Positions 2,969-22,491 of a stretch of DNA of 54,040 bases are shown here, piece by piece. How positions within the stretch are numbered: position 1 is the first letter of the stretch; the number at the start of each line of letters is the position of its first letter. Under the pieces are notes generated by a model, which saw only the letters and a list, made by a program, of their open reading frames with translations, searched no databases and was not told the DNA's origin. A program made the translations under genes and the position numbers. This DNA is from a virus: IMG/VR virus record IMGVR_UViG_3300023223_000319, positions 1-54,040 of that record. The stretch is one strand, 5' to 3'.

Positions 2969-4787
2969 AGTACCAGGCATAGGGCGGCCGACCGCTAATA
3001 GTATTCGCGTTCTAGTTGCAACAACCCGTGATTCAGCGGTTGACCCTATCAGCGCGGTAGCCTCTGCGGGCAGTGTGGCCATAACGCAGCCAGCGCAGAC
3101 TCTCGTGACAATTTCGGCTCCGCTACAGGTCGGGTTTGTTGATGTTACCGGGCTGCCGGCCCACTCCCCCCTTACCGTAACCGTCTCCCAGAATGGGGAG
3201 GACGACCAAGTTTGCACGCTAAAAACGCTGCCTGACGATGAGGTGACAGATTTTAGCTTTATTATGACCACTTGCGACTTTTTGGTCAGCAAGACAGCGG
3301 GAAATCTGTGGCGAGAACTTAATGATTTAATCGACACCGAGAATATCCTGTTTAGAGTTAACCCTGACGACTACACCTATGTCGACGGCCTGACTATGAA
3401 CAAACCCCCCTACACATCAACGGGAGTGCCTGGCACCACAAAAGACCCTGACGACTACAACCTTGCTTACGGGGTGTGGGCTGGTGTGTTTGATACGTAC
3501 TACGAGGCTCACGATGTAGAGCGTCAAGACTTTTATAAACGAGTTCCGGTACTGTCTACTGGCGGCGACCATTATGTAAAAAACGATTATCGACGGTCTA
3601 CGGACGTTCCAGAAGATTCGGTGCTATATGCCGCCGCTAAAGACGGATGGGAGAACTGGGCAGCCCCGCTTAACCCGGATCCACTAGCTGTGGGTGAGCT
3701 GTGGTTCGGGTTTACCTGTGGGCCTTGCCGGTTCGTATTTAGCGAAATGGAAAACACGTGTATACCCCCCGTTGCCAGCGAGACGGACAAGCCTTGCTAC
3801 ACCCAGCCCCAGATTGACGACTGGTTTAACTACTGGGATACGGATCCTGTGCAGTTTAATTTTCTTTGCTCGGAGCGAATGACAGACCAGACGCAGCAGG
3901 GATGGAGACAGCTGCACCAGGACGAGGCGGACGGGTGGAAGGCGTCAATGGAAGCTAACAACAACCTAAACGGTGTTAACGGGAATCTGACCGCCTTGAC
4001 CGGCGACAGGCATTGCCAGATGGTCATACAGTACGACTCATTTGCAGAAATGGTGCCGTCACAGTGCGCGGGTCAAGATTCGGTGGGCGCAGAGCTTTAC
4101 GGTATAAACTGGGCCTGGGGTGGCGTGCTAAAGCATGCGATAGTGACCCGAGACGAGATAGGTGACAGGCCAGAAGAGGGGTTTATTTTATTCAGGGTAA
4201 AGGCGAGCGCCGCCACGCCTTTCCTAGAAATGATTCACTATCAGACCATGAATGGCACGCTACAACAGACTTACGGCCCCTCTAGGCTTAATGCTGGCGC
4301 AGAGGACAATCAGTGGGTGCTGCCAGACAATAGCGACAGGATAGGGCGCGAGGTACAGAATTCAGGTGCTATAGGCCAGAAGGACCGATTTGTAATGCCG
4401 GGCGAGACTATCGCTCAAGGATCGAGGGATGATTACCTGGGATTCTACATATTCCAAGGTGACAACAACAGTTATCTAACGACTCTGAATTGCCATGTAG
4501 GCGCTGTATCTGAGACGGTACAGGCCAGATTCAAACTAACACTATTCGAGTATGACTTTGGCGGCACTCAGCTACCAACAAAGGTTGTCGGAGAGACAGA
4601 ATTCCAGAGGCTACCGGTTAAAGTCGGGGCGGGCGCCAGACAACTCCACAAGCTGCCAATAGTCGGTGGCGAGTTGAGGCTAGGCCCGAGATACTACATT
4701 ATAGGCATAAGTGTGGAGGACGCCCCCGTCTCCGTCTCAGATGATACAATCGGCGTCGTAGGACGAGAGGGGGCGATTAGTGTCTGA
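2961..4787 (+). CDS. PhoD-like phosphatase-fold protein, probably virion-associated (608 aa)
   Basis: The order of motifs resembles PhoD-type metallophosphatases: an N-terminal Ig-like region (Leu-Thr-Val-Thr-Val, residues about 50-85), a Thr-Thr-Cys-Asp segment near residue 100, Asn-Pro-Asp-Asp-Tyr-Thr-Tyr-Val-Asp-Gly near 130 where PhoD has Gly-Asp-x-Ile-Tyr-x-Asp, a Gly-Gly-Asp-His-Tyr-x-x-Asn-Asp segment near 195 where PhoD has Asp-Asp-His-Asp, and Leu-Thr-Gly-Asp-Arg-His near 350 matching the Ser-Gly-Asp-Arg-His end motif. Several metal-binding positions are changed, so it may be inactive or altered. Residues beyond about 450 form another beta-rich domain. It overlaps both neighbours, as expected for a multi-protein surface structure. 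Fold moderately supported; activity unknown. Confidence 0.5.
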   Translation: MLRVPGIGRPTANSIRVLVATTRDSAVDPISAVASAGSVAITQPAQTLVTISAPLQVGFVDVTGLPAHSPLTVTVSQNGEDDQVCTLKTLPDDEVTDFSFIMTTCDFLVSKTAGNLWRELNDLIDTENILFRVNPDDYTYVDGLTMNKPPYTSTGVPGTTKDPDDYNLAYGVWAGVFDTYYEAHDVERQDFYKRVPVLSTGGDHYVKNDYRRSTDVPEDSVLYAAAKDGWENWAAPLNPDPLAVGELWFGFTCGPCRFVFSEMENTCIPPVASETDKPCYTQPQIDDWFNYWDTDPVQFNFLCSERMTDQTQQGWRQLHQDEADGWKASMEANNNLNGVNGNLTALTGDRHCQMVIQYDSFAEMVPSQCAGQDSVGAELYGINWAWGGVLKHAIVTRDEIGDRPEEGFILFRVKASAATPFLEMIHYQTMNGTLQQTYGPSRLNAGAEDNQWVLPDNSDRIGREVQNSGAIGQKDRFVMPGETIAQGSRDDYLGFYIFQGDNNSYLTTLNCHVGAVSETVQARFKLTLFEYDFGGTQLPTKVVGETEFQRLPVKVGAGARQLHKLPIVGGELRLGPRYYIIGISVEDAPVSVSDDTIGVVGREGAISV

Positions 4788-5691
4788 TTTCGTAGACAGC
4801 AAGCCGGTGCAGTCCAGTATGGGGCTGTGGTCGGACGTAGAGAGGAAGGCTGAAATGCTCACTTTTGGATTTAAGAAGACCGCAAGCGATGCCAATAGCC
4901 CGAGAACACAGCTAAACGGGAACGCCAGAACGAGCGCTAGGCAGGTTGCGGCAGCCAGGACGCTCTCAACTCCAGACGACATTAGCATAAAACGGCTTAG
5001 CTGGTTTGGCAGAACTGGTCAATCCGGGCTCCCTACTTATAATTTCACGATTGCCATCTACACGTATGATCCGACGGGCTACGGCGGTAGCGGGCAGCCA
5101 CTGACAAAAGTTGGGGAGGCGGCGGGTGTTTTCGACAACGGCACGACACAGCCAAACGAAACCGAGTGGTTTATTAATGTAGATATTAGCCTGCCGGCGA
5201 ACAACCCAGGCGAGGAGTATATTCTTGCGTCTGTTTTTGACATAGACACTTTAGTCGGCGACTCAAGGGATGGCACGACCAGCTCGGTTAATAATTCAGA
5301 CATCTATCCTGACGGGCTGGTTGATGATTGGAGCATTCTCTTGCAGTCAGCATCATCATCAGACCCGGCTATATGGGCTGATTACGAGATTATAACCGCG
5401 CCCCCCACACTAACCGCTCCGTACAGTAATCTAATAAACATATTTGGCGATGCTGTTAGTGTAGACTTGAGTGGTCATATTACCGATGCGACATCTATTG
5501 ATTACTCGGTATTCCCTGCAACCCTGTCAGAGTCTTCGGATCTCGTTACAGGAACGGTAACATTGCCAACAGGCAGAACCCGAGTATCAGTAACAGCTAC
5601 AAACTCATTTGGGTCAATAGTTGAGACATTTGAATGGGATACATTAACTATCGGCGCGGCGTCTAACATTAACACTGATATAAATACATAG
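4780..5691 (+). CDS. virion surface protein with C-terminal Ig-like domain (303 aa)
   Basis: GTG start at 4780, eight bases inside the preceding gene and preceded by a strong GAGAGGGGG ribosome site. The N-terminal 170 residues are beta-rich and aromatic. Residues about 205-285 look like a putative-Ig (He_PIG/cadherin-like) domain: Val-Ser-Val-Asp-Leu-Ser, then Thr-Gly-Thr-Val-Thr-Leu-Pro, and Arg-Val-Ser-Val-Thr-Ala-Thr-Asn. Such domains decorate phage capsids and tails and bind carbohydrates weakly. Probably part of the same surface complex as its two upstream neighbours; placement on the particle is not known. Confidence 0.55.
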   Translation: MSDFVDSKPVQSSMGLWSDVERKAEMLTFGFKKTASDANSPRTQLNGNARTSARQVAAARTLSTPDDISIKRLSWFGRTGQSGLPTYNFTIAIYTYDPTGYGGSGQPLTKVGEAAGVFDNGTTQPNETEWFINVDISLPANNPGEEYILASVFDIDTLVGDSRDGTTSSVNNSDIYPDGLVDDWSILLQSASSSDPAIWADYEIITAPPTLTAPYSNLINIFGDAVSVDLSGHITDATSIDYSVFPATLSESSDLVTGTVTLPTGRTRVSVTATNSFGSIVETFEWDTLTIGAASNINTDINT

Positions 5692-5699
5692 GCATCACT

Positions 5700-6020
5700 A
5701 TGACAACCATTATACCCCAACCTAAAGTCGCTACCTTGGACGCCGCCAATACCTCCGTAGACATGGTTAACACGGCCGGCAGCATTGAGATTGCAGGTGA
5801 TTTTACAGGCCCGGCTACAGTAACCCAGAGCCTTACAGGCGGGTCTACTACAATTGATACCTTTCTGGTGGATAGCACGCTCCACACACAGGCAAACCAG
5901 CTTACATTCGGCTTAACTGGCGGCAACGGGCCGATTACCATCCGGTGGTATCCTGATGCAATTAATACAGATGTAACAGATACCCGGGTACTTAAAAAAG
6001 ACAAATCACACGAGGGTTAA
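5700..6020 (+). CDS. hypothetical small beta-rich protein (106 aa)
   Basis: Starts eight bases after the preceding stop. Rich in Thr, Ser and Gly with the alternating pattern of a single Ig-like or jelly-roll domain (Ser-Ile-Glu-Ile-Ala-Gly...Ala-Thr-Val-Thr-Gln-Ser-Leu-Thr-Gly-Gly). Probably a minor surface component of the 2090-6020 cluster. No family recognised. Confidence 0.55.
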   Translation: MTTIIPQPKVATLDAANTSVDMVNTAGSIEIAGDFTGPATVTQSLTGGSTTIDTFLVDSTLHTQANQLTFGLTGGNGPITIRWYPDAINTDVTDTRVLKKDKSHEG

Positions 6021-6023
6021 GAT

Positions 6024-6113
6024 ATGGCACATAAAGCAAAGCCAAAGCGTGGTCAGCGAGCAAATACCAACAAGAACAGCAAAGATAAGCGTAAGAAGCG
6101 TACCAAAAAGTAA
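6024..6113 (+). CDS. tiny highly basic protein (29 aa)
   Basis: A 29-residue frame with 14 Lys/Arg starting four bases after the previous stop, with GAGGGTTAAGAT upstream as ribosome site; its TAA overlaps the ATG of the HNH gene (TAATG). Such Lys/Arg-rich mini-proteins (Ala-His-Lys-Ala-Lys-Pro-Lys start) are common beside packaging genes in phages, and many bind nucleic acid. Function unknown. Confidence 0.55.
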   Translation: MAHKAKPKRGQRANTNKNSKDKRKKRTKK

Positions 6114-6472
6114 TGGAGATATTGCTGCTCTGTATTGGGCTGCTGATAATTGCTGTATGCCAGGATTTAACCCTAGAGCCGACCAAAGAGCAGCAAGACC
6201 CTAATTTCTACCGCTCACCCGAATGGCGGGCGTTAAGGGTTAGAGTATTCGCAGCATGGGGTAGAGATTGCCTCATTTGTGGCAAGAACATTGAGCCGAT
6301 GACCATTGATCATGTGTACCCCAGGTCAAAGTTTCCAGAACTGGAGCTAGAGTTCACAAATTGCCAGCCCGCTTGCTCTCCTTGCAACCGCAAAAAGAGT
6401 AATACCGATTTCACTGACTACCGGGATTACCGGCAAATGAACGAAATTGTCAGTGATCATGCTAAGCGGTGA
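6113..6472 (+). CDS. HNH endonuclease with hydrophobic N-terminus (119 aa)
   Basis: Residues about 35-100 form a Cys4-type HNH nuclease: Trp-Arg-Ala-Leu-Arg, Cys-Leu-Ile-Cys-Gly-Lys, Thr-Ile-Asp-His-Val-Tyr-Pro-Arg-Ser (the catalytic His segment), and Cys-Ser-Pro-Cys-Asn-Arg-Lys-Lys with the closing Asn. HNH proteins next to terminase genes stimulate DNA packaging or cleavage in several phages, and that role is likely here, 0.6 kb before the small terminase. Residues 1-16 are a hydrophobic stretch (Leu-Leu-Leu-Cys-Ile-Gly-Leu-Leu) unlike usual HNH proteins; this could be a membrane anchor or a mis-set start. TAATG coupling to the preceding gene favours this start. Confidence 0.8.
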   Translation: MEILLLCIGLLIIAVCQDLTLEPTKEQQDPNFYRSPEWRALRVRVFAAWGRDCLICGKNIEPMTIDHVYPRSKFPELELEFTNCQPACSPCNRKKSNTDFTDYRDYRQMNEIVSDHAKR

Positions 6473-6507
6473 CTATCGAACAATATTGATTTCACCGACT
6501 GGAGAGA

Positions 6508-6738
6508 ATGATGGATAATATATTGAATGGTAGCTGGGTAAACTCTAAAGAAAGTTTGTTCAAATCCCCGAACGATCCAAGCCTCCAATATAACGGCGAT
6601 AACTCATCCTTTAATATATCAGGGAGTGACTTGACTATTGATGGCATTGATATTGCCCCTGGAATACATAAGCTAAAGCCAGGTCAGGTTGTGCGATATA
6701 GCCAAGAGCATGACTTTGCTATAAGTGAGGCATGTTAG
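6508..6738 (+). CDS. hypothetical protein (76 aa)
   Basis: Preceded by CTGGAGAG, a good ribosome site. Asn/Ser/Asp-rich N-terminal half followed by a repeating Ile-Asp-Gly-Ile-Asp-Ile pattern typical of beta structure. Overlaps the following gene by seven bases. No family recognised. Confidence 0.6.
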   Translation: MMDNILNGSWVNSKESLFKSPNDPSLQYNGDNSSFNISGSDLTIDGIDIAPGIHKLKPGQVVRYSQEHDFAISEAC

Positions 6739-6983
6739 AAGTGAGTAAAGTCATAAGAAGCGCGCACGATCTTCCAGAGCCTATTGACGGCGTTATTAAC
6801 ATAGAGCCGGGAACAATCTTTGATTTCAGCGGCGTACTTGAGGCTCATCATCCCATGAAATTCAAGGGCACCTTTGATTTCCGATTTCATAACAATATTG
6901 AATCGGCGCCATCAAATCCAAAAGATTATGCGGAGCTTGCCATCAATCAAAGCTGTGTGGCATCACTATTAAGCAATCATTAA
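6732..6983 (+). CDS. hypothetical protein (83 aa)
   Basis: Starts within the end of the previous gene (start could also be a few codons later). Contains Gly-Val-Ile-Asn-Ile-Glu-Pro-Gly-Thr-Ile-Phe-Asp-Phe-Ser-Gly, a turn-rich beta pattern. Last gene before the hairpin terminator at 7033-7053, so probably the end of the transcription unit running from 2090 or earlier. Confidence 0.55.
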   Translation: MLEVSKVIRSAHDLPEPIDGVINIEPGTIFDFSGVLEAHHPMKFKGTFDFRFHNNIESAPSNPKDYAELAINQSCVASLLSNH

Positions 6984-7032
6984 AGAGCTAGGTAAATGCT
7001 CTAAGGGTAGTAAGTCATAACCCATCACCTAT

Positions 7033-7053
7033 CCTGCTTTTTGCGGGTTTTTT
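7033..7053 (+). terminator. rho-independent terminator before the packaging genes
   Basis: A CCTGC/GCGGG stem (7033-7037 with 7043-7047, one G-U pair) closes a five-base loop and is followed by six T. A second weaker hairpin (AGAGC/GCTCT) lies just upstream at 6983-7002. It separates the small-gene cluster from the terminase genes. A -10-like TATGAT follows at 7063-7068. Confidence 0.75.
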
Positions 7054-7107
7054 CATATATGGTATGATTAAATCAATTAATGGTGAAAGACTGACAAAAG
7101 ACTGACT

Positions 7108-7587
7108 ATGTCAAAACATGAATATACCTCTGAAAACCAGCCAGACCCATCCCTAAAGGTAAGAGGTAAGGCAAAGAAGACTCTAATGCTTGATGCCATA
7201 AGGGCTCAGTGCGAGGGAGGCGAACAAGAGTTTCTCAAAAAAGTTGTCGAGCACGCACTGGGTTTCGATGGGGCGGCAGCAACAGAAGACACTCCGGAAA
7301 CAGCCCCAATCCCCCCTAACCCCCAATTACTAACCCTTGTCCTAAACCGCATAGAGCCACCACTAAAGGCCACTATGCCCCTCATAGAGTTTGACTTCGA
7401 CCACACTGCTAAACCCCATGAGCAGGCAGCACAGGTCATTGAGGCAGTATCTAACGGGATTATGTCTCCTGATATCGGATCAATGTTCATATCCTCTATA
7501 AAATCCATGCTTGAGATTGAAGAATATACTGAGCTAAAGGCCAGAATAGAAAGGCTGGAGGACGTTTTAAATGGGGAGTCTAGCTAG
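7108..7587 (+). CDS. putative terminase small subunit (159 aa)
   Basis: Lies directly before and overlaps (17 bases) the large terminase gene, the standard position for the DNA-recognition subunit. The N-terminal region is basic (Lys-Val-Arg-Gly-Lys-Ala-Lys-Lys-Thr), followed by a helical segment; the C-terminal 35 residues are a charged helix (Glu-Tyr-Thr-Glu-Leu-Lys-Ala-Arg-Ile-Glu-Arg-Leu-Glu), suited to oligomerisation. I do not see an unambiguous HTH, so the call rests mainly on position and size. Confidence 0.65.
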   Translation: MSKHEYTSENQPDPSLKVRGKAKKTLMLDAIRAQCEGGEQEFLKKVVEHALGFDGAAATEDTPETAPIPPNPQLLTLVLNRIEPPLKATMPLIEFDFDHTAKPHEQAAQVIEAVSNGIMSPDIGSMFISSIKSMLEIEEYTELKARIERLEDVLNGESS

Positions 7588-13704: not shown

Positions 13705-14142
13705 ATGTTAAATACTTTTACAAAATTTCTCGAAGGTATTGCAGAAGAGGGTGAAAAGCTATTTTCCAGAGTCAAGGATAAAGCATTATTTCGCAAGGTT
13801 GTTTCTGCCAGCTTTCTTATTGCTCGTGCCGATGGCGATTTTGATTCTGATGAAAAAACAGCGCTGGCGACGATCGTTTCTAAAAAGCTTTCTCACTTTA
13901 GCATCGGTGATATTTTAAAAGTCCTGAATGATTGTGAGGAAAAAGTTGCCTTTGATGAAACTATGGGCGTTATGGAAATAATGGACGATATCTGCACGGC
14001 ATCAGGTAGCGATGCTGAAATGATACTTCGAATCTCTTGCTTTATTGGCGCCTCAGACGGCGATTTTGACGCCGATGAGAAAAAGGTTGCCTCGGATATG
14101 GCTAAGCGCATGAGCCTTGATCCTTCGGGTTATGGGCTGTGA
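13705..14142 (+). CDS. terB: TerB-family protein
   Basis: 145 aa, close to the family length. Two related motifs, Ala-Arg-Ala-Asp-Gly-Asp-Phe-Asp-Ser-Asp-Glu-Lys (about residues 39-50) and Ala-Ser-Asp-Gly-Asp-Phe-Asp-Ala-Asp-Glu-Lys (about 115-125), are the hallmark acidic repeats of the all-helical TerB fold. A GAGGG ribosome site precedes the ATG. TerB is thought to link cytoplasmic partners to membrane TerC; its gene overlaps terC by four bases. Confidence 0.93.
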   Translation: MLNTFTKFLEGIAEEGEKLFSRVKDKALFRKVVSASFLIARADGDFDSDEKTALATIVSKKLSHFSIGDILKVLNDCEEKVAFDETMGVMEIMDDICTASGSDAEMILRISCFIGASDGDFDADEKKVASDMAKRMSLDPSGYGL

Positions 14143-15047
14143 TAGGCTATCCACTGGTTACGGTCTCCGTCTTTATCGGCATAGCGGTTATGTTATTTGC
14201 CGCTGACCTTTTTGCGCATAAGAAGAAGGAGGCGGTATCTTTTAAATCATCCGTCATGTGGTCATTGATATATATAGCAGGTGCCATGTGTTTTGCGGCA
14301 TTTCTTTACTTCTATCATGGTCAGCAGGCGGCAAGCCTGTTTTTAACGGGGTATACGCTAGAGAAAGTCCTGGCATTTGATAATCTTTTTGTCTTCTCTC
14401 TGATATTTGCTTATTTTAAAATACCTGCACCTGATAGGCATGCAGCACTTCACTGGGGGATTATCGGGGCTATAGTATTTAGACTGGTATTCGTTGTCAT
14501 TGGCGTTGAATCAATGAGCCTATTTGGCCCTGTAATGGAGTTTATATTTGCTTGCTTAATAGCATTCACTATTTACCTAATAGTAAAGTCTGGCGATGAT
14601 GAGGCTGATTATGACAATGTGTGGTATGTAAAATATATCAGAAGGCATTTCCCTTCAGTAACGCCCTTTATCATTGCTATATGCGCTATTGAGATAAGTG
14701 ACATCATGTTTGCTTTTGATAGCGTGCCTGCGGTGATCGCCGTCACTAAAGACCCTTTGTTGATCTATAGCTCAATGATATTCGCAATACTTGGCTTAAG
14801 GTCTTTGTATTTCGTTATAGACTCGCTGTCGTCGTGCTTGAGATATATGGATGCATCGATCATATGCGTGCTGTCTTTTATCTCCATTAAACTTGCTGCC
14901 CATTCGATAACTGGATTTCATATTGAAGCAAATCACAGTTTGATTGTCGTTATTTCAATATTATCAGTTGGTATAATTTTATCTTTATTTAAAGGATCTG
15001 ATCATGAAAAAGAACCCAATACTGAAGCATCTTCGAAAGCCTCTTAA
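14139..15047 (+). CDS. terC: TerC-family integral membrane protein
   Basis: 302 aa with about nine hydrophobic segments. Family motifs are intact: Leu-Ala-Phe-Asp-Asn-Leu-Phe-Val-Phe, His-Trp-Gly-Ile-Ile-Gly-Ala-Ile-Val-Phe-Arg, and Glu-Ile-Ser-Asp-Ile-Met-Phe-Ala-Phe-Asp-Ser-Val-Pro-Ala, with the conserved acidic residues in the membrane. GTG start inside the end of terB. TerC proteins act in metal (manganese, calcium) handling and tellurite resistance. No terZ, terA, terE or terF is present, so this is a minimal terD-B-C set. Confidence 0.94.
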   Translation: MIGYPLVTVSVFIGIAVMLFAADLFAHKKKEAVSFKSSVMWSLIYIAGAMCFAAFLYFYHGQQAASLFLTGYTLEKVLAFDNLFVFSLIFAYFKIPAPDRHAALHWGIIGAIVFRLVFVVIGVESMSLFGPVMEFIFACLIAFTIYLIVKSGDDEADYDNVWYVKYIRRHFPSVTPFIIAICAIEISDIMFAFDSVPAVIAVTKDPLLIYSSMIFAILGLRSLYFVIDSLSSCLRYMDASIICVLSFISIKLAAHSITGFHIEANHSLIVVISILSVGIILSLFKGSDHEKEPNTEASSKAS

Positions 15048-15234
15048 GTGGGCTGCCCTGGCTATATTCTGCATCATCGCTCTATCTCGAGGCGTCAGCT
15101 ATATTGCTGGCGCTTACTCATGTAGCTCGGAATGGAAAGAGAGCGGCATGGATTACAAATACAAATTAAGTGCCGGCTGCATGATAAGCCCTAACGGCAA
15201 CTGGATTCCTGCGCGAAATTACAGGATTGATTGA
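15004..15234 (+). CDS. small membrane protein downstream of terC (76 aa)
   Basis: Starts inside the end of terC with AAAGGATC upstream. One hydrophobic segment (residues about 16-32) after a basic start predicts a single membrane span, followed by a soluble part with cysteines at about residues 40 and 59. It could be a partner of TerC. No family recognised. Confidence 0.65.
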   Translation: MKKNPILKHLRKPLKWAALAIFCIIALSRGVSYIAGAYSCSSEWKESGMDYKYKLSAGCMISPNGNWIPARNYRID

Positions 15235-15319
15235 GGCTTTTGGGTCTGTTTTGGCGAAATATCTAGGGATGGATAAGTTCCTGCTTATTGATAGTCCGTC
15301 TGCCAATGCGTTTTTATAA
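15227..15319 (+). CDS. possible tiny protein (30 aa, TTG start)
   Basis: A 30-residue frame beginning at TTG after ACAGGA, overlapping the previous stop by eight bases and ending before the AGAAAGGAA site of the next gene. It is hydrophobic and amphipathic (Phe-Gly-Ser-Val-Leu-Ala-Lys-Tyr-Leu-Gly). Weak start and short length keep confidence low. Confidence 0.3.
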   Translation: MIEAFGSVLAKYLGMDKFLLIDSPSANAFL

Positions 15320-15336
15320 TAGAAAGGAATATAAGT

Positions 15337-15669
15337 ATGGAAAAACAATGTAGTCACGGCGTCGAATGGGACGTGCACTGCGCTGAGTGTGAGATGGTCA
15401 GCCTGGATGAGACGATATTTCATGCAGGCAAAGCCCTTGCTTTAGCTAAGGCAACGAAGATTGAGGTGCAGGCGTTAATCAACGCTCAGCGTGAGGCTCT
15501 TAGTGACGCTAGTTGGCCTGATCATTTAAAGCGAGATGCACCTTATGCTCAATGCGATCAATGCCGGCGTAAGTCATGGACTTCCAAACAATTCGGCAGT
15601 ATTTGCGGAATGGTTGATCTAGACAGGAATAGAACTTGCCCTGGCCGCTTAATAAAAACAGTTCAATAA
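15337..15669 (+). CDS. cysteine-rich, zinc-binding-like protein (110 aa)
   Basis: An N-terminal Cys-x-His...His-Cys-x-x-Cys cluster (residues 5-18) and a C-terminal Cys-Asp-Gln-Cys-Arg-Arg...Cys...Cys set (residues about 70-105) suggest two zinc sites. A good AGAAAGGAATAT ribosome site precedes the ATG. Function unknown; it sits between the ter genes and RtcB. Confidence 0.65.
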   Translation: MEKQCSHGVEWDVHCAECEMVSLDETIFHAGKALALAKATKIEVQALINAQREALSDASWPDHLKRDAPYAQCDQCRRKSWTSKQFGSICGMVDLDRNRTCPGRLIKTVQ

Positions 15670-15692
15670 TGCACGACTACTGGAGTTAGAAG

Positions 15693-16922
15693 ATGAGCAA
15701 GTATAAATATATATTTGACGATACGGCATCCAGCCCAATCAAGCATTGGACTAAAGGCGTGGAGCTAGACGATAAAGCAAGAGACCAGCTATACAATATT
15801 GCCTCGATGCCATTCATCCACAAGCATGTTGCAGTGATGCCTGATGTTCACTGGGGCAACGGGGCTACCATAGGATCAGTTATAGCCACCAAGGGAGCCA
15901 TTATACCGGCTGCGGTAGGCGTTGATATTGGCTGCGGAATGATGGCGCTTAAAACGTCACTAAAGGCCACTGACCTGCCTGATAACCTTCACGCTATACG
16001 CAGCGCCATAGAGGCAGAAATCCCCCATGGGCGCACTGATAACGGCGGTAAGAATGACAAAGGCGGATGGGGTGATGTAATGCCATCGGATAACGCCGAT
16101 TCATGGCTAAGGCTTTCTGTTGGTTATGAAGCTATATTGGCAAAGCACCCTAAAGCGAAGTCATTCAATAACGCATCTCACCTAGGAACGCTCGGAACTG
16201 GCAACCACTTCATTGAATTATGCCTTGATGAAAATGACGATGTTTGGGTAATGCTGCATTCTGGTTCTCGTGGAGCCGGCAACCGTATTGGCATGTATTT
16301 CATTGAGAAAGCGAAAAAGGAGATGGAGCGATATTATATTGATAAGTATCTGCCGGATCGTGAGCTTGCCTATTTAGTTGAGCATTCGGAGATTTTCGAT
16401 GATTACGTTTCTGCGGTTGCGTGGGCCCAGGATTACGCGCTTGAAAACAGAAAGCTTATGATGGCTCAAGTTTTAGGTGCGATGAAGCGACACTTAAAGC
16501 CATTCACAATTGAAGATGAGGCGATTAACTGCCATCACAACTACATAGATAGAGAGAATCATTTCGGCTCTAATGTGTGGGTGACTCGCAAAGGTGCTGT
16601 TCGCGCCAGAGAGAAAGATTTAGGGATTATTCCAGGCTCCATGGGCACCGGGTCATTCATTGTTCGCGGACTAGGCAACAAAGACTCATTCTGTAGCTGC
16701 TCTCATGGAGCTGGCCGCGTAATGTCTAGAGGTGAGGCAAAGAGAAAGATAACGCTAGAGCAGCACGAAAAAGCCATGACAGGAATCGAGGCGAGACTTG
16801 ATGCCGGCGTCATTGATGAAAGTCCTGCGGCCTATAAAGACATTGGCGCGGTAATGGATGCTCAGAGTGACTTAGTTGAAATTGTTTATCGTCTTCGTCA
16901 AGTGATAAATGTTAAAGGCTAG
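15693..16922 (+). CDS. rtcB: RtcB-type RNA ligase
   Basis: 409 aa, the length of bacterial RtcB. RtcB joins 2',3'-cyclic-phosphate or 3'-phosphate RNA ends to 5'-OH ends using GTP and Mn2+. Visible motifs: Met-Pro-Asp-Val-His-Trp-Gly-Asn-Gly-Ala-Thr-Ile-Gly (metal His), Gly-Val-Asp-Ile-Gly-Cys-Gly-Met, Gly-Thr-Leu-Gly-Thr-Gly-Asn-His-Phe, His-Ser-Gly-Ser-Arg-Gly, Asn-Cys-His-His-Asn-Tyr, Ile-Pro-Gly-Ser-Met-Gly and Cys-Ser-His-Gly-Ala-Gly-Arg with the guanylated His. All key residues look intact, so it should be active. Next to a SpoU methylase, RlaP-type transferase and tRNA-like RNA, it probably reseals tRNA cut by host anticodon nucleases; that substrate is inferred. Confidence 0.95.
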   Translation: MSKYKYIFDDTASSPIKHWTKGVELDDKARDQLYNIASMPFIHKHVAVMPDVHWGNGATIGSVIATKGAIIPAAVGVDIGCGMMALKTSLKATDLPDNLHAIRSAIEAEIPHGRTDNGGKNDKGGWGDVMPSDNADSWLRLSVGYEAILAKHPKAKSFNNASHLGTLGTGNHFIELCLDENDDVWVMLHSGSRGAGNRIGMYFIEKAKKEMERYYIDKYLPDRELAYLVEHSEIFDDYVSAVAWAQDYALENRKLMMAQVLGAMKRHLKPFTIEDEAINCHHNYIDRENHFGSNVWVTRKGAVRAREKDLGIIPGSMGTGSFIVRGLGNKDSFCSCSHGAGRVMSRGEAKRKITLEQHEKAMTGIEARLDAGVIDESPAAYKDIGAVMDAQSDLVEIVYRLRQVINVKG

Positions 16923-16968
16923 GCCACTAGCGCGCATTACAGAATGTTAACTTGATGATATCTGGCTG

Positions 16969-16977
16969 TGCTATAAT
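16969..16977 (+). promoter_or_regulatory. extended -10 promoter of the NAD+ gene pair
   Basis: TGC-TATAAT (16969-16977) is a consensus extended -10 element. A poor TTGATG sits only 14 bases upstream, so the extended motif likely carries recognition. The predicted start near 16984 puts the leader RNA helix (16988) right at the 5' end of the transcript. Confidence 0.6.
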
Positions 16978-16983
16978 ATCAGC

Positions 16984-17085
16984 TTGGCTTTGGTCGGCCT
17001 AATTCGTAAGTTAACAAAGCTCAGGCTTTTATCCTTTATCGCACTTACGCGAAACGACCAAAGGGATAGAAGTCTGAGCTTTTTT
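16984..17085 (+). ncRNA. structured leader RNA with pseudoknot and U6 terminator, upstream of the Prs/NAMPT-family pair
   Basis: Helices seen: P1, 9 bp perfect (16988-16996 with 17055-17063); P2, 7 bp (17005-17011 with 17043-17049); B, 10 bp with one G-U (17019-17028 with 17070-17079) followed by six T (17080-17085). The 5' strand of B lies in the P2 loop and its 3' strand lies outside P1, so B and P1/P2 cross: a pseudoknot or two competing states. An inner extension of B (17031-17037 with 17060-17067) shares bases with the 3' strand of P1 and would compete. It ends 13 bases before the Prs-family ATG. It could be a ligand-sensing attenuator or a separate sRNA; I do not recognise it as a known NAD+ or PRPP riboswitch. 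Confidence 0.7.
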
Positions 17086-17098
17086 ATTGGAGAACAAT

Positions 17099-17926
17099 AT
17101 GATTTCAATAAGGATTTGTGGAGATAATTATTACCCATCCGTTATGGTTTTCTCTGGCGGTGAGGTCAATGTAACACTCCCCACTATATTGCCTTACTCT
17201 ATTGACTCATACACATTGAAGGCAAAAATAAAGAGTTCCGAAGATTTAATGACTCTCTTTATGGTGAAGAATGCTCTCAATGTTAAATATGGATCAAATG
17301 TTACATCTCAGCTAATAATCCCATATCTGCCTTATGCCAGACAGGACAGGGTATGTAATCCTGGTGAGGCGCTATCAATCAAGGTTATGGCTGACCTTAT
17401 TAATAGCATGGCCTTCTCAAGGGTGATTACCTACGACAACCATAGTGACGTATCCACGGCGCTTATCGACAACTGCAACAACAAACTGCCAAGTCAGCTA
17501 ATTGCTCAATGTGGTGAAATTAATAACCTTCTTACAAAGACAAGGGTATCTCTGTGCTGTCCTGATGCCGGAGCAGCCAAGAAGGTCTATGGAGTGTCTA
17601 AGGCCTATGGAGGGGTGCCGGTTGTTATGGCTGAAAAGATTCGTGATGTAAAGACAGGTGAAATTACCCATACCGAGGTTTATGCCGATGATCTTGGCGG
17701 ACAAAGCATTCTTGTAATTGATGATATCTGCGATGGAGGAATGACATTTATTAAGTTGGCTGAAAAACTTATAGCAAAAAATGCAGGCCCACTATTTTTA
17801 TATGTTACTCATGGAATTTTTAGCAAGGGACTAGATGCTCTTTCCATGTATCAAAAGATATATACCACTGATAGTTTTTCAGCAGTAGAAGACGGAAACG
17901 ATAAACTTTACATAATCAAGCCATAG
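17099..17926 (+). CDS. Prs-family enzyme, probably ADP-ribose pyrophosphate synthetase (Adps) of NARP1
   Basis: 275 aa; start at 17099 has TGGAGA eight bases upstream. It has the ribose-phosphate pyrophosphokinase fold: Pro-Tyr-Leu-Pro-Tyr-Ala-Arg-Gln-Asp-Arg (flexible catalytic loop, about residues 80-90) and Val-Ile-Asp-Asp-Ile-Cys-Asp-Gly-Gly-Met-Thr-Phe (PRPP-loop signature, about 205-216). Phage Prs paralogues paired with a NAMPT-like gene were shown to convert ADP-ribose to ADPR-pyrophosphate in NARP1, rebuilding NAD+ after host NADase defences. The adjacent NAMPT-family gene and absence of any NMN adenylyltransferase favour that reading. A plain PRPP synthetase feeding NAMPT is the alternative; sequence alone cannot separate them. 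Confidence 0.75.
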   Translation: MISIRICGDNYYPSVMVFSGGEVNVTLPTILPYSIDSYTLKAKIKSSEDLMTLFMVKNALNVKYGSNVTSQLIIPYLPYARQDRVCNPGEALSIKVMADLINSMAFSRVITYDNHSDVSTALIDNCNNKLPSQLIAQCGEINNLLTKTRVSLCCPDAGAAKKVYGVSKAYGGVPVVMAEKIRDVKTGEITHTEVYADDLGGQSILVIDDICDGGMTFIKLAEKLIAKNAGPLFLYVTHGIFSKGLDALSMYQKIYTTDSFSAVEDGNDKLYIIKP

Positions 17927-17935
17927 GATAACACC

Positions 17936-19498
17936 ATGAAAATCAACCCTTTAACTCAAATTGACTTCTACAAAGCCGATCACAGGCGTCAATATCCAGA
18001 CGGAACTACGCTGGTGTACTCTAATTTCACCCCTCGCAGCGATAAGCTTGCGCCTATCCTAGAAGAATTTTGGGATGGCAAGATTACATTCTACGGGCTT
18101 CAGGGTTTTTGTAAGTGGTTCCTGATTGATCTATGGAATGCTGAATTCTTCAATAAGCCAAAAGATATTGTGGTGAAGAAATATAAGCGCAGAATGGATA
18201 CTTCTTTAGGCGTTGACGCTATCGATATTGCCCACATTGAAGCTCTGCATGACCTGGGATATCTACCTGTCAAGATCAAGGCACTCCCCGAAGGCTCTCA
18301 AGTTGGCATGAAAGTCCCGGTATTTACCATTGAAAACACGCTACCTGAATTCTTCTGGCTGACTAACTACCTTGAGTCGGTAATGAGCACGGAGATATGG
18401 AAGCCGTGCACTACTGCAACCATTGCATTTCAGTATAAAAAGCTGCTTACGAGCTATGCAGTGGCAACAGGGGCTCCTTTAGACTTCGTACCTATCCAGT
18501 GTCACGACTTCAGCTTACGCGGCCTCAGCGGACTGCATGACGCCCACTCTAGCGCATCCGGCCACTTGCTTAGCTTTGTTGGTACGGACTCAATTCCAGC
18601 CATCGACTATTTAGAAGAGTATTACAATGCAGACTGCGAGAAAGAGCTTGTGGGTTGTAGCGTACCGGCGACAGAGCATTCAGTGATGTGTATGGGCGGC
18701 CAGGATGATGAGATAGGAACTTTCCGGCGCCTTATTACTGAAACCTATCCTGCTGGAGTGGTCTCTATAGTGTCTGATACTTGGGATTTCTGGAAGGTTG
18801 TCACTGAGTACACCGTGGCCCTGAAAGATGAAATCATGAGTCGGAAGCCCAATGTCATCGGATTAAATAAGGTGGTCTTGCGTCCAGATAGCGGCGATCC
18901 TATACGGATTATTTGCGGTTATACCGAAGATGAGATAATCAGAGATCCTCATGGCTGCATCCAAGTCAAGGCGAGCTCTGGCGCTAAAAACCTTACTGAG
19001 CATGAAGTAAGGGGCGCAGTACAGTGCTTATGGGATATATTCGGAGGTACTGAAACTTCACTGGGTTATAATTTACTCGATGAGCATATTGGCCTGATTT
19101 ACGGCGATTCAATTACCTTGCGGCGGGCCAAAGAAATCCTCCAGCGGTTGAAAGATAAGGGCTTTGCGTCCACTAACGTGGTATTTGGTGTGGGTTCCTA
19201 TACATATCAATACAATACCCGGGACACATTCGGCTTTGCCATGAAGGCAACTTATGGCGAAGTTAATGGAGAGGGGCGAGAGATATTCAAAGACCCGGCC
19301 ACTGATGACGGCATTAAGAAGTCTGCTAAAGGCCTTCTAGCTGTTGTTGATGGTTCTGACGGGTATCAGCTGGTAGGCCAATTAACCCGGGAGACTCAAG
19401 AGCTTCTCTGCGTGATGGATGTTGTGTTTGCCGATGGAGGGATGATCAGGGATCAATCTTTGTCTGGAATCCGTGAGTTAATCGATAACTCTTTGTAA
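17936..19498 (+). CDS. NAMPT-family enzyme, probably nicotinamide ADP-ribose transferase (Namat) of NARP1
   Basis: 520 aa, full family length. Conserved elements: Tyr-Ser-Asn-Phe-Thr-Pro-Arg-Ser near residue 30, Leu-Thr-Asn-Tyr-Leu-Glu-Ser, Asp-Phe-Ser-Leu-Arg-Gly-Leu-Ser-Gly, Phe-Val-Gly-Thr-Asp-Ser (the Asp that selects nicotinamide), Val-Pro-Ala-Thr-Glu-His-Ser with the catalytic His, and Val-Leu-Arg-Pro-Asp-Ser-Gly-Asp-Pro. In classic salvage it makes NMN from nicotinamide and PRPP; in NARP1 the homologue joins nicotinamide to ADPR-pyrophosphate, giving NAD+ directly. It follows the Prs-family gene after nine bases, so one transcript controlled by the leader RNA makes both. The exact substrate is inferred from pairing. 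Confidence 0.88.
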   Translation: MKINPLTQIDFYKADHRRQYPDGTTLVYSNFTPRSDKLAPILEEFWDGKITFYGLQGFCKWFLIDLWNAEFFNKPKDIVVKKYKRRMDTSLGVDAIDIAHIEALHDLGYLPVKIKALPEGSQVGMKVPVFTIENTLPEFFWLTNYLESVMSTEIWKPCTTATIAFQYKKLLTSYAVATGAPLDFVPIQCHDFSLRGLSGLHDAHSSASGHLLSFVGTDSIPAIDYLEEYYNADCEKELVGCSVPATEHSVMCMGGQDDEIGTFRRLITETYPAGVVSIVSDTWDFWKVVTEYTVALKDEIMSRKPNVIGLNKVVLRPDSGDPIRIICGYTEDEIIRDPHGCIQVKASSGAKNLTEHEVRGAVQCLWDIFGGTETSLGYNLLDEHIGLIYGDSITLRRAKEILQRLKDKGFASTNVVFGVGSYTYQYNTRDTFGFAMKATYGEVNGEGREIFKDPATDDGIKKSAKGLLAVVDGSDGYQLVGQLTRETQELLCVMDVVFADGGMIRDQSLSGIRELIDNSL

Positions 19499-19507
19499 TT
19501 AATAACT

Positions 19508-19542
19508 GCTCCTAGCAGGGTCGAGTCCTGCTAGGAGTACCA
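19508..19542 (+). ncRNA. tRNA-like minihelix (acceptor stem plus T-arm plus CCA)
   Basis: A 7-bp acceptor-like stem (19508-19514 with 19532-19538, first pair G-U) stacks directly on a 5-bp stem (19515-19519 with 19527-19531) closing a 7-base loop with T-C-G-A at the T-loop positions and C after it, followed by A and CCA at 19539-19542. This is the top half of a tRNA with D and anticodon arms missing. The acceptor matches the phage tRNA at 50773 in six of seven 5' bases and in the G-U first pair and A73. It lies in the 58-base gap after the NAMPT-family gene. No T-run follows, so it is a poor terminator; an RNase P/RNase Z processing signal, tRNA decoy or degraded tRNA are options. Confidence 0.65.
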
Positions 19543-19556
19543 ATTTAAGGGTTAAT

Positions 19557-20030
19557 ATGAGCATCAAGGAAATAACCATGAAGACTAATGGAGTGAGAGG
19601 TTTCTGCGGAATCGGGCTAGATAATCCAAAGAGCAATATTAATGTTGGCGCGGCTTTAAGAGCTGCCGGAGTCTATGGCGCTTCATTTGTCGCTGCAAGT
19701 GGTGGGCGATGGACAAGCGACAAAACTGACACCATGAAAAGTTACAGGCACTTACCTTTACTACGTCCTGAGAATCTAAGGGACTTACTGCCGTATGACT
19801 GTGTTCCCGTTGCTGTTGATTTAATCGAGGGGGCAATTGCACTGCCGGAATACAAACATCCAGAAAGAGCCTTTTATATATTTGGCGCAGAGGATGCGAC
19901 GTTGGGCGAAAGAATCACTGGGTGGTGTCGAGATACTATCTACATACCAACTAACGGGTGTATGAATTTAGCGGCCACTGTAAATGTCGTGCTTTATGAC
20001 AGGCTGGCTAAAAGCTTAATTAAGGATTGA
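19557..20030 (+). CDS. SpoU/TrmH-family RNA 2'-O-methyltransferase
   Basis: 157 aa, a minimal SPOUT domain. The three family motifs are present: Asn-Val-Gly-Ala-Ala-Leu-Arg-Ala-Ala (motif 1, near residue 30), Tyr-Ile-Phe-Gly-Ala-Glu-Asp-Ala-Thr-Leu (motif 2, near 105) and Ile-Pro-Thr-Asn-Gly-Cys-Met-Asn-Leu-Ala-Ala-Thr-Val-Asn-Val (motif 3, knotted SAM site). These enzymes methylate tRNA or rRNA riboses. AAGGG precedes the ATG; an internal Met8 is possible. Next to the minihelix and with tRNAs elsewhere in the genome, a tRNA substrate is likely but inferred. Such a mark could protect tRNA from nucleases. Confidence 0.88.
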   Translation: MSIKEITMKTNGVRGFCGIGLDNPKSNINVGAALRAAGVYGASFVAASGGRWTSDKTDTMKSYRHLPLLRPENLRDLLPYDCVPVAVDLIEGAIALPEYKHPERAFYIFGAEDATLGERITGWCRDTIYIPTNGCMNLAATVNVVLYDRLAKSLIKD

Positions 20031-20031
20031 T

Positions 20032-20292
20032 ATGTCTATTGACGAAAACAGCTACAACCAAGGATCTCGCATGGCATGGCGACGAATGCTTCAGCAATGT
20101 TGCCGTGAGCTAGGATATGATGATATTGAAACAGATAAGGCCAGATGGATATTAGAGCGAGAGGCGGCTATTAGTGCGCTGCGTAGCGTCTGCTCAGGTC
20201 ATGGCGATAATGACTGGGAAGATAATTTGTACATGGGAGATATTATAGAGAAGCATTTGCTCAATAACCTTGAGTCTGCTTCTGGCGGCTAG
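20032..20292 (+). CDS. hypothetical phage protein (86 aa)
   Basis: Starts one base after the methyltransferase stop, with AAGGATTG upstream. Helical, with Arg-Met-Ala-Trp-Arg-Arg-Met-Leu-Gln-Gln-Cys and a repeated Glu-Arg-Glu-Ala-Ala-Ile-Ser-Ala-Leu-Arg pattern; similar small proteins occur in other phages without known role. Last gene of the rightward accessory block; it converges on the leftward block ending at 20295. Confidence 0.65.
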   Translation: MSIDENSYNQGSRMAWRRMLQQCCRELGYDDIETDKARWILEREAAISALRSVCSGHGDNDWEDNLYMGDIIEKHLLNNLESASGG

Positions 20293-20294
20293 AT

Positions 20295-21248
20295 TTACCC
20301 TCTGTATACAGAGATAAGCCAGTCATCCCAAAAGCCTGTATCAACCTTATCTGGATAAGGCGACTTATCAGCCAAGCCCTCAACCTCGGCTATGAGGCTT
20401 TCTAGCAACGGCTGCACGAATGATAGAAAATCATAATCTCCAATCTTAATGCCTCGGATTACGTCCCTATCCTTCAGTGGATATTCAATGCAGCCATTCA
20501 AGTATATCTCCTTAAGCTGATAAGCAGCCCTGATAGCGTGAGAGACAGCCTTCCAGTCAATACCCTCATTATCCTTTGCTTGCCGCGCACGCTCACCGTA
20601 TGAGCTCCATTTTACATCCATGGAGGCGATAAACTGATGTAGCGGCATGGAATTCTGATACTTGGAGCCTAGAACCTCATAAAACTCCTGCTCTTCGCCT
20701 GATTTCAGCTTGTCGTTAATGAATCTGCAATGATCATTAACAGGCAATTTATCCCAGATAGATAATAGCTTTCTTGGCTCCGAGAGAATATGCTGCCTTG
20801 ATACATTCCATACCTCTTCAAGCGCGCCCATTCTACTGCCTTTTAGGCCATACTTGGCGGCCTGCTTCTTGGCATACCCAAGGAAGGCTTTCATATTTTT
20901 AGTGTAGAATCGGTCTTTGTTAGCCACGATAAAAGCCCATTCAGGCGAGCCACAAAGAACCATTTCCCTATTAGTGTGGGCATGCAGCATATCCAGAGCT
21001 ATAGTTTCACCCTGGCAAGCCAGCTTGATAAACTCAGGCAATGAATACCAATCGCTATCAATATCATCGGATGAGTTCTTGGTTTCGTTATTGCCGGATG
21101 ATTCGCTGACCTGCCTAGGAGACTTACCTAATAACAGCTCATCCAGCTCAGGCATGAAGACGCCTTTGTAGTCCGTGTCTGACTGAGGCGTATCAAGCCC
21201 ATACAGATGCGAGCCGTGAATGCACTGGAATAGCTTTTTGTATTTCAT
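20295..21248 (-). CDS. DNA polymerase beta-superfamily nucleotidyltransferase (RlaP-type)
   Basis: 317 aa. The N-terminal motif Gly-Ser-His-Leu-Tyr-Gly-Leu-Asp-Thr-Pro-Gln-Ser-Asp-Thr-Asp-Tyr is the GS...SDxD catalytic signature (both Asp present). The following helical region with Leu-Pro-Glu-Phe-Ile-Lys-Leu-Ala fits the predicted nucleotidyltransferase family named RlaP (RNA-ligase-associated pol beta), often coupled to RNA ligases and repair. In this genome it shares the accessory island with RtcB, so a role in RNA-end repair, such as adding a nucleotide to damaged tRNA, is a reasonable inference. It overlaps the upstream HD gene by four bases, implying co-translation. Confidence 0.8.
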   Translation of the reverse strand: MKYKKLFQCIHGSHLYGLDTPQSDTDYKGVFMPELDELLLGKSPRQVSESSGNNETKNSSDDIDSDWYSLPEFIKLACQGETIALDMLHAHTNREMVLCGSPEWAFIVANKDRFYTKNMKAFLGYAKKQAAKYGLKGSRMGALEEVWNVSRQHILSEPRKLLSIWDKLPVNDHCRFINDKLKSGEEQEFYEVLGSKYQNSMPLHQFIASMDVKWSSYGERARQAKDNEGIDWKAVSHAIRAAYQLKEIYLNGCIEYPLKDRDVIRGIKIGDYDFLSFVQPLLESLIAEVEGLADKSPYPDKVDTGFWDDWLISVYRG

Positions 21249-21793
21249 TTTGGCCCCAAGTAATAATCAATGATAATTCTGCTCAGCGTATTCCATAGCT
21301 CTTTGTCTCCGTCCTTGAGAAGGCCGAGTAATAACTGCATTTCTTTCATGTATACTTTCGCAAAGCCTGGATCATGCTGAGTTATGGACTCCGAGTTATG
21401 AATCAAGTCGGCAAGTTTTACTGTCTTGGCGCGATCAGAAATCCCTGATAGGTGTTCTCGGTCCATAGCCTTGCGAATAGCACGATTCCCATCTTCAGGC
21501 TTTGATACATCAGACGGCTCTACAACCATATTAGCGACCGTACACCCAAAGCCTGCTCTCATAATGTCTTGATGTGTTATCGTAGTATCCTCAATAACGT
21601 CGTGCAGTATCGCGGAAGTCACCATATCTACGTCATAGTAATCACAAGTCATAACAATCTTGGCAACGGCTATAGGGTGGTTGATATAGGGCTCTCCGGT
21701 GTATTTCCTTACTTGGTCGCCATGGGCTTCATTGCCGAATTTCACAGCAAAATCGATTAAATCCTGGCTTCTTTCGTAGATTATTCCGTGCAT
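21245..21793 (-). CDS. HD-domain hydrolase, SpoT/MESH1-like (possible (p)ppGpp hydrolase)
   Basis: 182 aa, the size of small alarmone hydrolases. HD motifs: Asp-Gln-Val-Arg-Lys-Tyr-Thr-Gly-Glu-Pro-Tyr-Ile-Asn-His-Pro (first His, near residue 39), Ala-Ile-Leu-His-Asp-Val-Ile-Glu-Asp-Thr (HD pair and Glu-Asp), and Val-Lys-Leu-Ala-Asp-Leu-Ile-His-Asn (last Asp). This set matches the SpoT-type hydrolase that removes pyrophosphate from (p)ppGpp. A phage enzyme of this type could blunt the stringent response or alarmone-based (toxic SAS) defences. Substrate is inferred; other HD nucleotide hydrolases are possible. Stop overlaps the RlaP-type start. Confidence 0.82.
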   Translation of the reverse strand: MHGIIYERSQDLIDFAVKFGNEAHGDQVRKYTGEPYINHPIAVAKIVMTCDYYDVDMVTSAILHDVIEDTTITHQDIMRAGFGCTVANMVVEPSDVSKPEDGNRAIRKAMDREHLSGISDRAKTVKLADLIHNSESITQHDPGFAKVYMKEMQLLLGLLKDGDKELWNTLSRIIIDYYLGPK

Positions 21794-21804
21794 ACATTCC
21801 TCAC

Positions 21805-22011
21805 TTAATGCGCCTTATCCCCAGCCCTAACCATATCAAGCAAAGGCTTAAGCACTCCAAAATCATTGATATCTGCTTCGATATCTTCCTGATGAGCCAT
21901 GGCAAACATTAACCCAGCCTGCATTGATTCTATGGCGTCTGAGTACAGGACAAAGGCGCCTTCATCGTCTTCTTGAATATCAAATACGGTCTTTGTTTTA
22001 TAGCGTTTCAT
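21805..22011 (-). CDS. acidic hypothetical protein (68 aa)
   Basis: A 68-aa acidic frame with a clear GGAAATGATATG start region. Helical pattern (Glu-Ser-Met-Gln-Ala-Gly-Leu-Met-Phe-Ala-Met-Ala-His-Gln-Glu-Asp). It lies 11 bases before the HD gene in the same direction. No family recognised. Confidence 0.6.
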   Translation of the reverse strand: MKRYKTKTVFDIQEDDEGAFVLYSDAIESMQAGLMFAMAHQEDIEADINDFGVLKPLLDMVRAGDKAH

Positions 22012-22050
22012 ATCATTTCCTATATTGTAAAATGGTATTTGTGCAGGCGT

Positions 22051-22491
22051 TTAATTCTCTTCTTTCCGTTTCTTAATCAGTGCCCAGTGTTTAAGATCGC
22101 CCGTCTCTAAAGGGTTTAGCCCCTCCCATGCCTTTGATGGGTGCGGGTCGTGAATTACCAGTCCGGAGCTATTAATTAAAACTGCGTGTGTCACTCCGTC
22201 TTCAGGAGGGTAGTTTTTACTGGACACCGTAGCCTCTATACACCCATTAACCGTTGGTGATCTAGCAAGTCTTTCTCTGGTTTCTTCGATAGTTTTTTTA
22301 GGATGCCCCGTTCCAAGCATTTCATAGCCAATTGCGTAAACAAAGCCACAAAGAACTGGCCACCACGTATGTTCATCAAACAGCCTGAAATGAGGGACTT
22401 GTGACACATCTAGGTCAAACAGGCTGGCTATTGCTGTTTGGTGGCAGTTGCCACGGGTTCTATCTGTGATCGTTTGCGTGTGCCTAATCAT
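22051..22491 (-). CDS. papain-like / Cys-His protein of unknown role (146 aa)
   Basis: Contains Arg-Gly-Asn-Cys-His-Gln-Thr-Ala-Ile-Ala-Ser-Leu-Phe-Asp-Leu (Cys near residue 16), Val-Pro-His-Phe and a late Gly-Val-Thr-His-Ala-Val-Leu-Ile...Val-Ile-His-Asp-Pro-His-Pro-Ser. The spacing of an N-terminal Cys and a later His-Ala-Val plus Asp recalls papain-like cysteine proteases or transglutaminases that many phages carry, usually annotated as hypothetical. Stop overlaps no gene, but the start overlaps the upstream gene by four bases. Activity unknown. Confidence 0.6.
   Translation of the reverse strand: MIRHTQTITDRTRGNCHQTAIASLFDLDVSQVPHFRLFDEHTWWPVLCGFVYAIGYEMLGTGHPKKTIEETRERLARSPTVNGCIEATVSSKNYPPEDGVTHAVLINSSGLVIHDPHPSKAWEGLNPLETGDLKHWALIKKRKEEN

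Follow-up and report, generated by a model that had tools for sequence, protein, structure and literature searches.

A predicted NARP1 operon behind a terminator-bearing leader in a podovirus with P22-like head proteins

The virus record analyzed here at its full length of 54,040 bases (the window) carries head genes for a P22-like coat protein (PF11651), portal and terminase, and the phage is a podovirus with P22-like head proteins. We identified two genes in the order adps-namat on the same strand, separated by a 9-nt gap, which is the layout of the NARP1 operon, preceded by a structured leader and a candidate promoter (Table 1). An earlier note, made from the sequence alone, had described a Prs-family gene followed by a NAMPT-family gene at this place, and its coordinates are correct. 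In Pfam, the first protein matches Pribosyltran_N (36 bits; cut-off 25) and the second matches NAPRTase and NAMPT_N, and the pair is matched by phrog_619 and phrog_448 of the PHROGs. The note had also reported that no NMN adenylyltransferase lies beside the pair, and this was borne out, as CTP_transf_like (PF01467) is absent from the 54-kb record, which may be an incomplete fragment, with 14 of 14 controls positive.

Table 1. Coordinates of the genes and leader elements at and around the adps-namat pair (window positions)
Feature	Position	Strand	Description and basis
TerB/TerC	13705-15047		
RtcB RNA ligase	15693-16922	+	
Extended -10 element TGCTATAAT	16969..16977	+	Sequence; no good -35; predicted transcription start about 16984
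Structured 5' leader of the Adps-Namat operon	16984..17098	+	RNA fold
Antiterminator helix P1, 5' strand CTTTGGTCG	16988..16996	+	Pairs with 17055-17063; stepwise folding of the growing transcript
Antiterminator helix P2, 5' strand CGTAAGT	17005..17011	+	Pairs with 17043-17049; stepwise folding
Intrinsic-terminator-like hairpin	17016..17085	+	22-bp stem, 17016-17037 with 17061-17082; U6 tract 17080-17085
3' strands of P2 (17043-17049) and P1 (17055-17063)	17043..17063	+	In the terminator loop; 3-nt overlap with the terminator 3' arm
Shine-Dalgarno GGAG	17089..17092	+	Sequence; 3 nt past the U tract
adps homolog	17099..17926	+	275 aa; predicted ADP-ribose pyrophosphate synthetase; PF13793, motifs, tree
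namat homolog	17936..19498	+	520 aa; predicted nicotinamide ADP-ribose transferase; PF04095 and PF18127, GSYTYQYNTRD, tree
SpoU-type methyltransferase	19557-20030		
RlaP-type nucleotidyltransferase	20295-21248	−	
SpoT/Mesh1-like HD alarmone-hydrolase domain protein	21245-21793	−	

The adps homolog, which starts with the ATG at 17099, contains the motifs HSDV, PDAGA, KIRDVKTGEI, DDICDGGMTF and THGIFSKG, all five of which recur across many or most Adps proteins but are absent from seven true Prs proteins (E. coli Prs and six host Prs from bacteria that also carry Adps). In the tree, these seven Prs form a separate clade with 100% support and a branch of 2.63, apart from the adps homolog. The homolog is ~33% identical to the verified SPbetaL1 Adps and 43.5% identical to its counterpart in the BASEL phage Bas62. 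As the structure of Adps is unresolved and its specificity residues are not yet defined (PMC12774641), the assignment is based on clade membership and motifs.

For the namat homolog, phmmer scores were 578 bits against the crystallized SPbetaL1 Namat (structures 9w5x/9w5w), to which it is ~56% identical, and about 217 bits against human NAMPT. Its GSYTYQYNTRD motif exactly fits the selectivity-helix (SCH) signature published for Namat, GSX-phi1-X-phi2-X-phi3-TRD (PMC12774641), in place of which six Nampt/NadV controls from phages and plasmids have GMGG[GA]LLQ...RD. In a maximum likelihood tree of 52 sequences, the protein falls inside the Namat group (100/100), with the six Nampt controls outside. 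Clustering with ordinary Prs and NAMPT, named in the earlier note as grounds for abandoning the NARP1 assignment, was looked for in the trees and is not seen.

By alignment, the NAM- and NAD-contact residues of SPbetaL1 Namat are kept in the namat homolog except at three positions (Phe392 to Tyr, Arg40 to Lys37 and Ala362 to Ser), and the equivalents of the clamp residues Tyr396, Thr398 and Asp400 are kept as well. The selectivity-clamp loop (SCL) of SPbetaL1 Namat stacks its Arg40 on adenine, and where this loop has a Lys or Tyr instead the next residue usually takes over the stacking (PMC12774641); in the namat homolog, Lys37 is followed by Leu38, which is not aromatic, and the adenine clamp is not fully matched. 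Because single clamp changes in Namat cause a loss of only 1.3- to 1.7-fold (PMC12774641) and the other clamp residues are kept, we treat this mismatch as raising a doubt, not as a failed match.

Phylogeny, diagnostic motifs and gene order thus give good support to the NARP1 reading proposed in the earlier note, and, judged from the sequences, the pair is very probably a podovirus-borne NARP1 operon that would rebuild NAD+ from ADP-ribose and nicotinamide. Membership in the family is assigned by sequence, and the chemistry and counter-defense role are projected from characterized relatives. After cleavage of NAD+ by host TIR, SIR2 or SEFIR-type NADase defenses, Adps would move pyrophosphate from ATP onto ADP-ribose to give ADPR-PP, and Namat would couple nicotinamide with ADPR-PP, restoring NAD+. 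The pair could instead serve ordinary NAD salvage by a NARP2-like route, with a PRPP synthetase, an NMN-making NAMPT and a host NMN adenylyltransferase finishing the pathway. Such a route would be in line with the Pfam and NCBIfam labels of the proteins (ribose-phosphate pyrophosphokinase and nicotinate phosphoribosyltransferase), with the imperfect selectivity-clamp loop and with the use of PRPP by the characterized Namat to make NMN in vitro (PMC12774641), on account of which the activity of the namat homolog may be mixed. However, full branch support separates both proteins from the Prs and Nampt clades, they bear the Adps and Namat signatures, and we regard salvage as a highly improbable explanation of the pair.

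The predicted NARP1 operon resembles that of the Bacillus phage SPbetaL1 (Adps WIT26982.1, Namat WIT26983.1; PDB 9w5w, 9w5x) in the adps-namat order, in nearly all NAD+-contact residues and in that no NMN adenylyltransferase is seen in the stretch examined; the SCH motif reads GSFTYQYNTRD in SPbetaL1 and GSYTYQYNTRD in the window. Unlike SPbetaL1 Namat, the window protein has an extra insert around residues 327-353, a longer selectivity-clamp loop and Lys37 for Arg40, and the SPbetaL1 locus showed no comparable terminator leader. In the NARP1 loci of Bas62, Alf5, ICP1 and phage K and in bacterial ones (Acinetobacter, Marinomonas and Cellulophaga), the two genes are adjacent or nearby and share the Adps and Namat motifs of the window, but, unlike in the window, no strong terminator hairpin lies within 45 nt of the Adps start. 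The Namats of Acinetobacter, Marinomonas and planctomycetes are among the closest to the window Namat (61-64%). NadV/Nampt proteins of Aeromonas phage 25, RB43 and plasmids belong to the same NAPRTase/NAMPT fold family, but are 27-33% identical to the window protein, have GMGG[GA]LLQ in the SCH region and fall outside the Namat clade.

Among Namat-like loci, almost every one with enough flanking sequence has an Adps-like gene close by. In locus L022 (positions 4001-6697), and also in L023 and L024, an Adps-like gene is found together with a deep-branching NAMPT/Namat-like protein (38% identical), in which the Namat SCH motif was not found and which sits apart from the main Namat group on a long branch; it may have a different specificity. 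In an Acinetobacter record (L145, positions 4099-7316), the gene after the Adps-Namat pair is annotated as a bifunctional NMN adenylyltransferase/ADP-ribose pyrophosphatase, and thus a chromosomal NARP1 can adjoin canonical salvage and ADP-ribose removal.

In the window, NARP1 stands among other possible damage-repair or resistance genes (13705-22491; Table 1), and this region may be a counter-defense and repair island; PADLOC models gave no match for the genes tested from it. With regard to genes that sometimes accompany NARP1, a macro (PF01661) ADP-ribose gene was not found, nor was a RyR (PF02026) gene, the absence of the latter being weak because its control was negative too. A relative of the SpoT/Mesh1-like HD protein is encoded no more than about 5 kb from NARP1 in loci L002, L022-L024, L029, L030, L042, L049, L063 and L068; NAD+ repair with alarmone hydrolysis is a possible recurring pairing, drawn from several distinct viral loci. 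A closely related phage contig, L115, encodes a coat protein 86% identical to that of the window phage and keeps TerB, TerC and the SpoU-type methylase in the order seen in the window (L115 positions 5300-6950, compared with window positions 15047-19557). With rtcB, the leader and the NARP1 pair all absent between TerC and SpoU in L115, rtcB-leader-adps-namat looks like a cassette gained in the window lineage or lost in that of L115.

The earlier note had placed the two genes behind an extended -10 and a structured, terminator-ending leader, and both elements are present. The TG at 16969 opens an exact extended -10, TGCTATAAT, which is likely, although not proven, to be the promoter of the operon, given that it lacks a good -35 and occurs at chance frequency (exact TGNTATAAT, 3 copies in the window, of which this intergenic gap holds one, vs 3.1 expected). 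The leader folds at -41.4 kcal/mol (z -5.3), a stability reached by none of 200 dinucleotide shuffles. Its terminator-like hairpin (-33.6 kcal/mol) is the stronger of only two that a scan of the whole window found with at least 12 bp and an energy below -20 kcal/mol followed by T5; a simple terminator scan did not pick it up, the loop being longer than 8 nt. Since the U tract ends just before the Shine-Dalgarno sequence, transcripts from the extended -10 or from rtcB read-through must pass the hairpin.

A stem of this kind might also be an RNase III processing site, trimming the mRNA just before the Shine-Dalgarno sequence, as RNase III does in T7 early mRNAs and the lambda N leader. The uninterrupted 22-bp stem is near the size preferred by RNase III and adjoins the ribosome-binding site, but the U6 right after it is a hallmark of intrinsic terminators that RNase III does not need, and processing is an unlikely role for this hairpin.

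Stepwise folding of the growing transcript suggests that the segment upstream of the hairpin can pair with its loop in two helices, P1 (CTTTGGTCG with CGACCAAAG, 9 perfect pairs) and P2 (CGTAAGT with ACTTACG, 7 perfect pairs). When the 3' arm of the terminator is about to emerge, the P1/P2 structure stands at -21.3 kcal/mol; the terminator then takes over at -38.9 kcal/mol. As the P1 3' strand shares three bases with the terminator 3' arm, with no linker, the two structures would be mutually exclusive. Loop pairing as good as that observed was obtained in 39 of 5000 dinucleotide shuffles of the 5' segment (p about 0.008), a modest significance that is suggestive but not conclusive because the structure was picked after looking. 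The leader has no open reading frame with an ATG and a Shine-Dalgarno sequence, its only open frame running from a TTG where transcription is expected to begin, and leader-peptide attenuation was rejected on this ground.

Like NAD+-I, NAD+-II and PRPP riboswitches and trp/BglG-type attenuators, the leader ends in a terminator and has a competing upstream pairing, but, unlike them, it belongs to no Rfam family at threshold. None of the Rfam 15 covariance models, including the NAD+ riboswitch classes held there, scored above its gathering score, and a NAD+ or PRPP riboswitch was rejected for lack of a match; the best sub-threshold match, bglG-cis-reg, was likewise rejected (27 bits vs a cut-off of 80) and probably reflects just the terminator. 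Searching annotated phages and plasmids by blastn with the leader gave nothing meaningful. An antiterminator covariance model run over 97 related loci retrieved nothing but the window, the next best match scoring 19 bits (E 0.24). The P1/P2 helix pattern had four matches in viral contigs (L133-L136), judged to be chance, three being, by eye, one unrelated sequence and the other lying in coding-like sequence. These comparisons yielded no homologs for covariation and lend the leader no support.

Furthermore, in a scan of 93 viral NARP1 loci and 73 more, about 165 other than this one lacked a comparable terminator within 45 nt of the Adps start. Terminator candidates in ICP1, L181 and L184 were rejected as weak or as lying within coding-like or AT-rich sequence, and the ICP1 fold is unremarkable. 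In L002, which holds the nearest Adps relative, a promoter-like TTGACT...TATAAT stands directly before the gene in place of the leader. The terminator-bearing leader is unusual and so far unique to this locus. The further suggestion of the earlier note, that expression may respond to NAD+ metabolites, found no support: the leader contains no Rfam riboswitch, has no homolog and is absent from other NARP1 loci.

The operon is probably transcribed from its own extended -10 promoter, and most transcripts would meet the strong hairpin before the Shine-Dalgarno sequence, so that the hairpin most likely lowers or conditions expression of the pair; the upstream segment would pair first with the hairpin loop and delay the terminator. 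The modeled anatomy is attenuator-like, and the leader could act as an attenuator. Alternatively, the hairpin may be a simple terminator keeping rtcB insulated from the NARP1 operon, in which case partial read-through by transcripts of the nearby promoter would provide basal expression, and we take this to be a real possibility, if short of an even chance. The rtcB stop at 16922, on the same strand and 94 nt upstream of the hairpin, the modest shuffle statistic of the loop pairing and the lack of a comparable hairpin at any other NARP1 locus scanned all fit an insulator; yet an insulator would also silence the pair, since the hairpin follows the likely promoter, and the two helices, perfectly paired and in register, coincide exactly with the terminator loop. 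That the leader is a true attenuator coupling NARP1 expression to conditions inside the infected cell, such as levels of NAD+, ADP-ribose, PRPP or nucleotides, seems to us decidedly unlikely.

To conclude, NARP1 is an already well-described and common counter-defense, with a Namat/Nampt relative in about 1,900 of 50,697 phage records, and the locus identified here is one more example, which by itself adds little. Its regulation would matter more, as no control of NARP1 is described in the literature searched and the leader here is compact. If the leader were an attenuator of this kind, the NAD+ repair enzymes would be made mainly while NAD+ is being destroyed, and the leader would represent a class of riboswitch or attenuator missing from Rfam. 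If the hairpin gates expression, this phage would deploy NAD+ repair conditionally.
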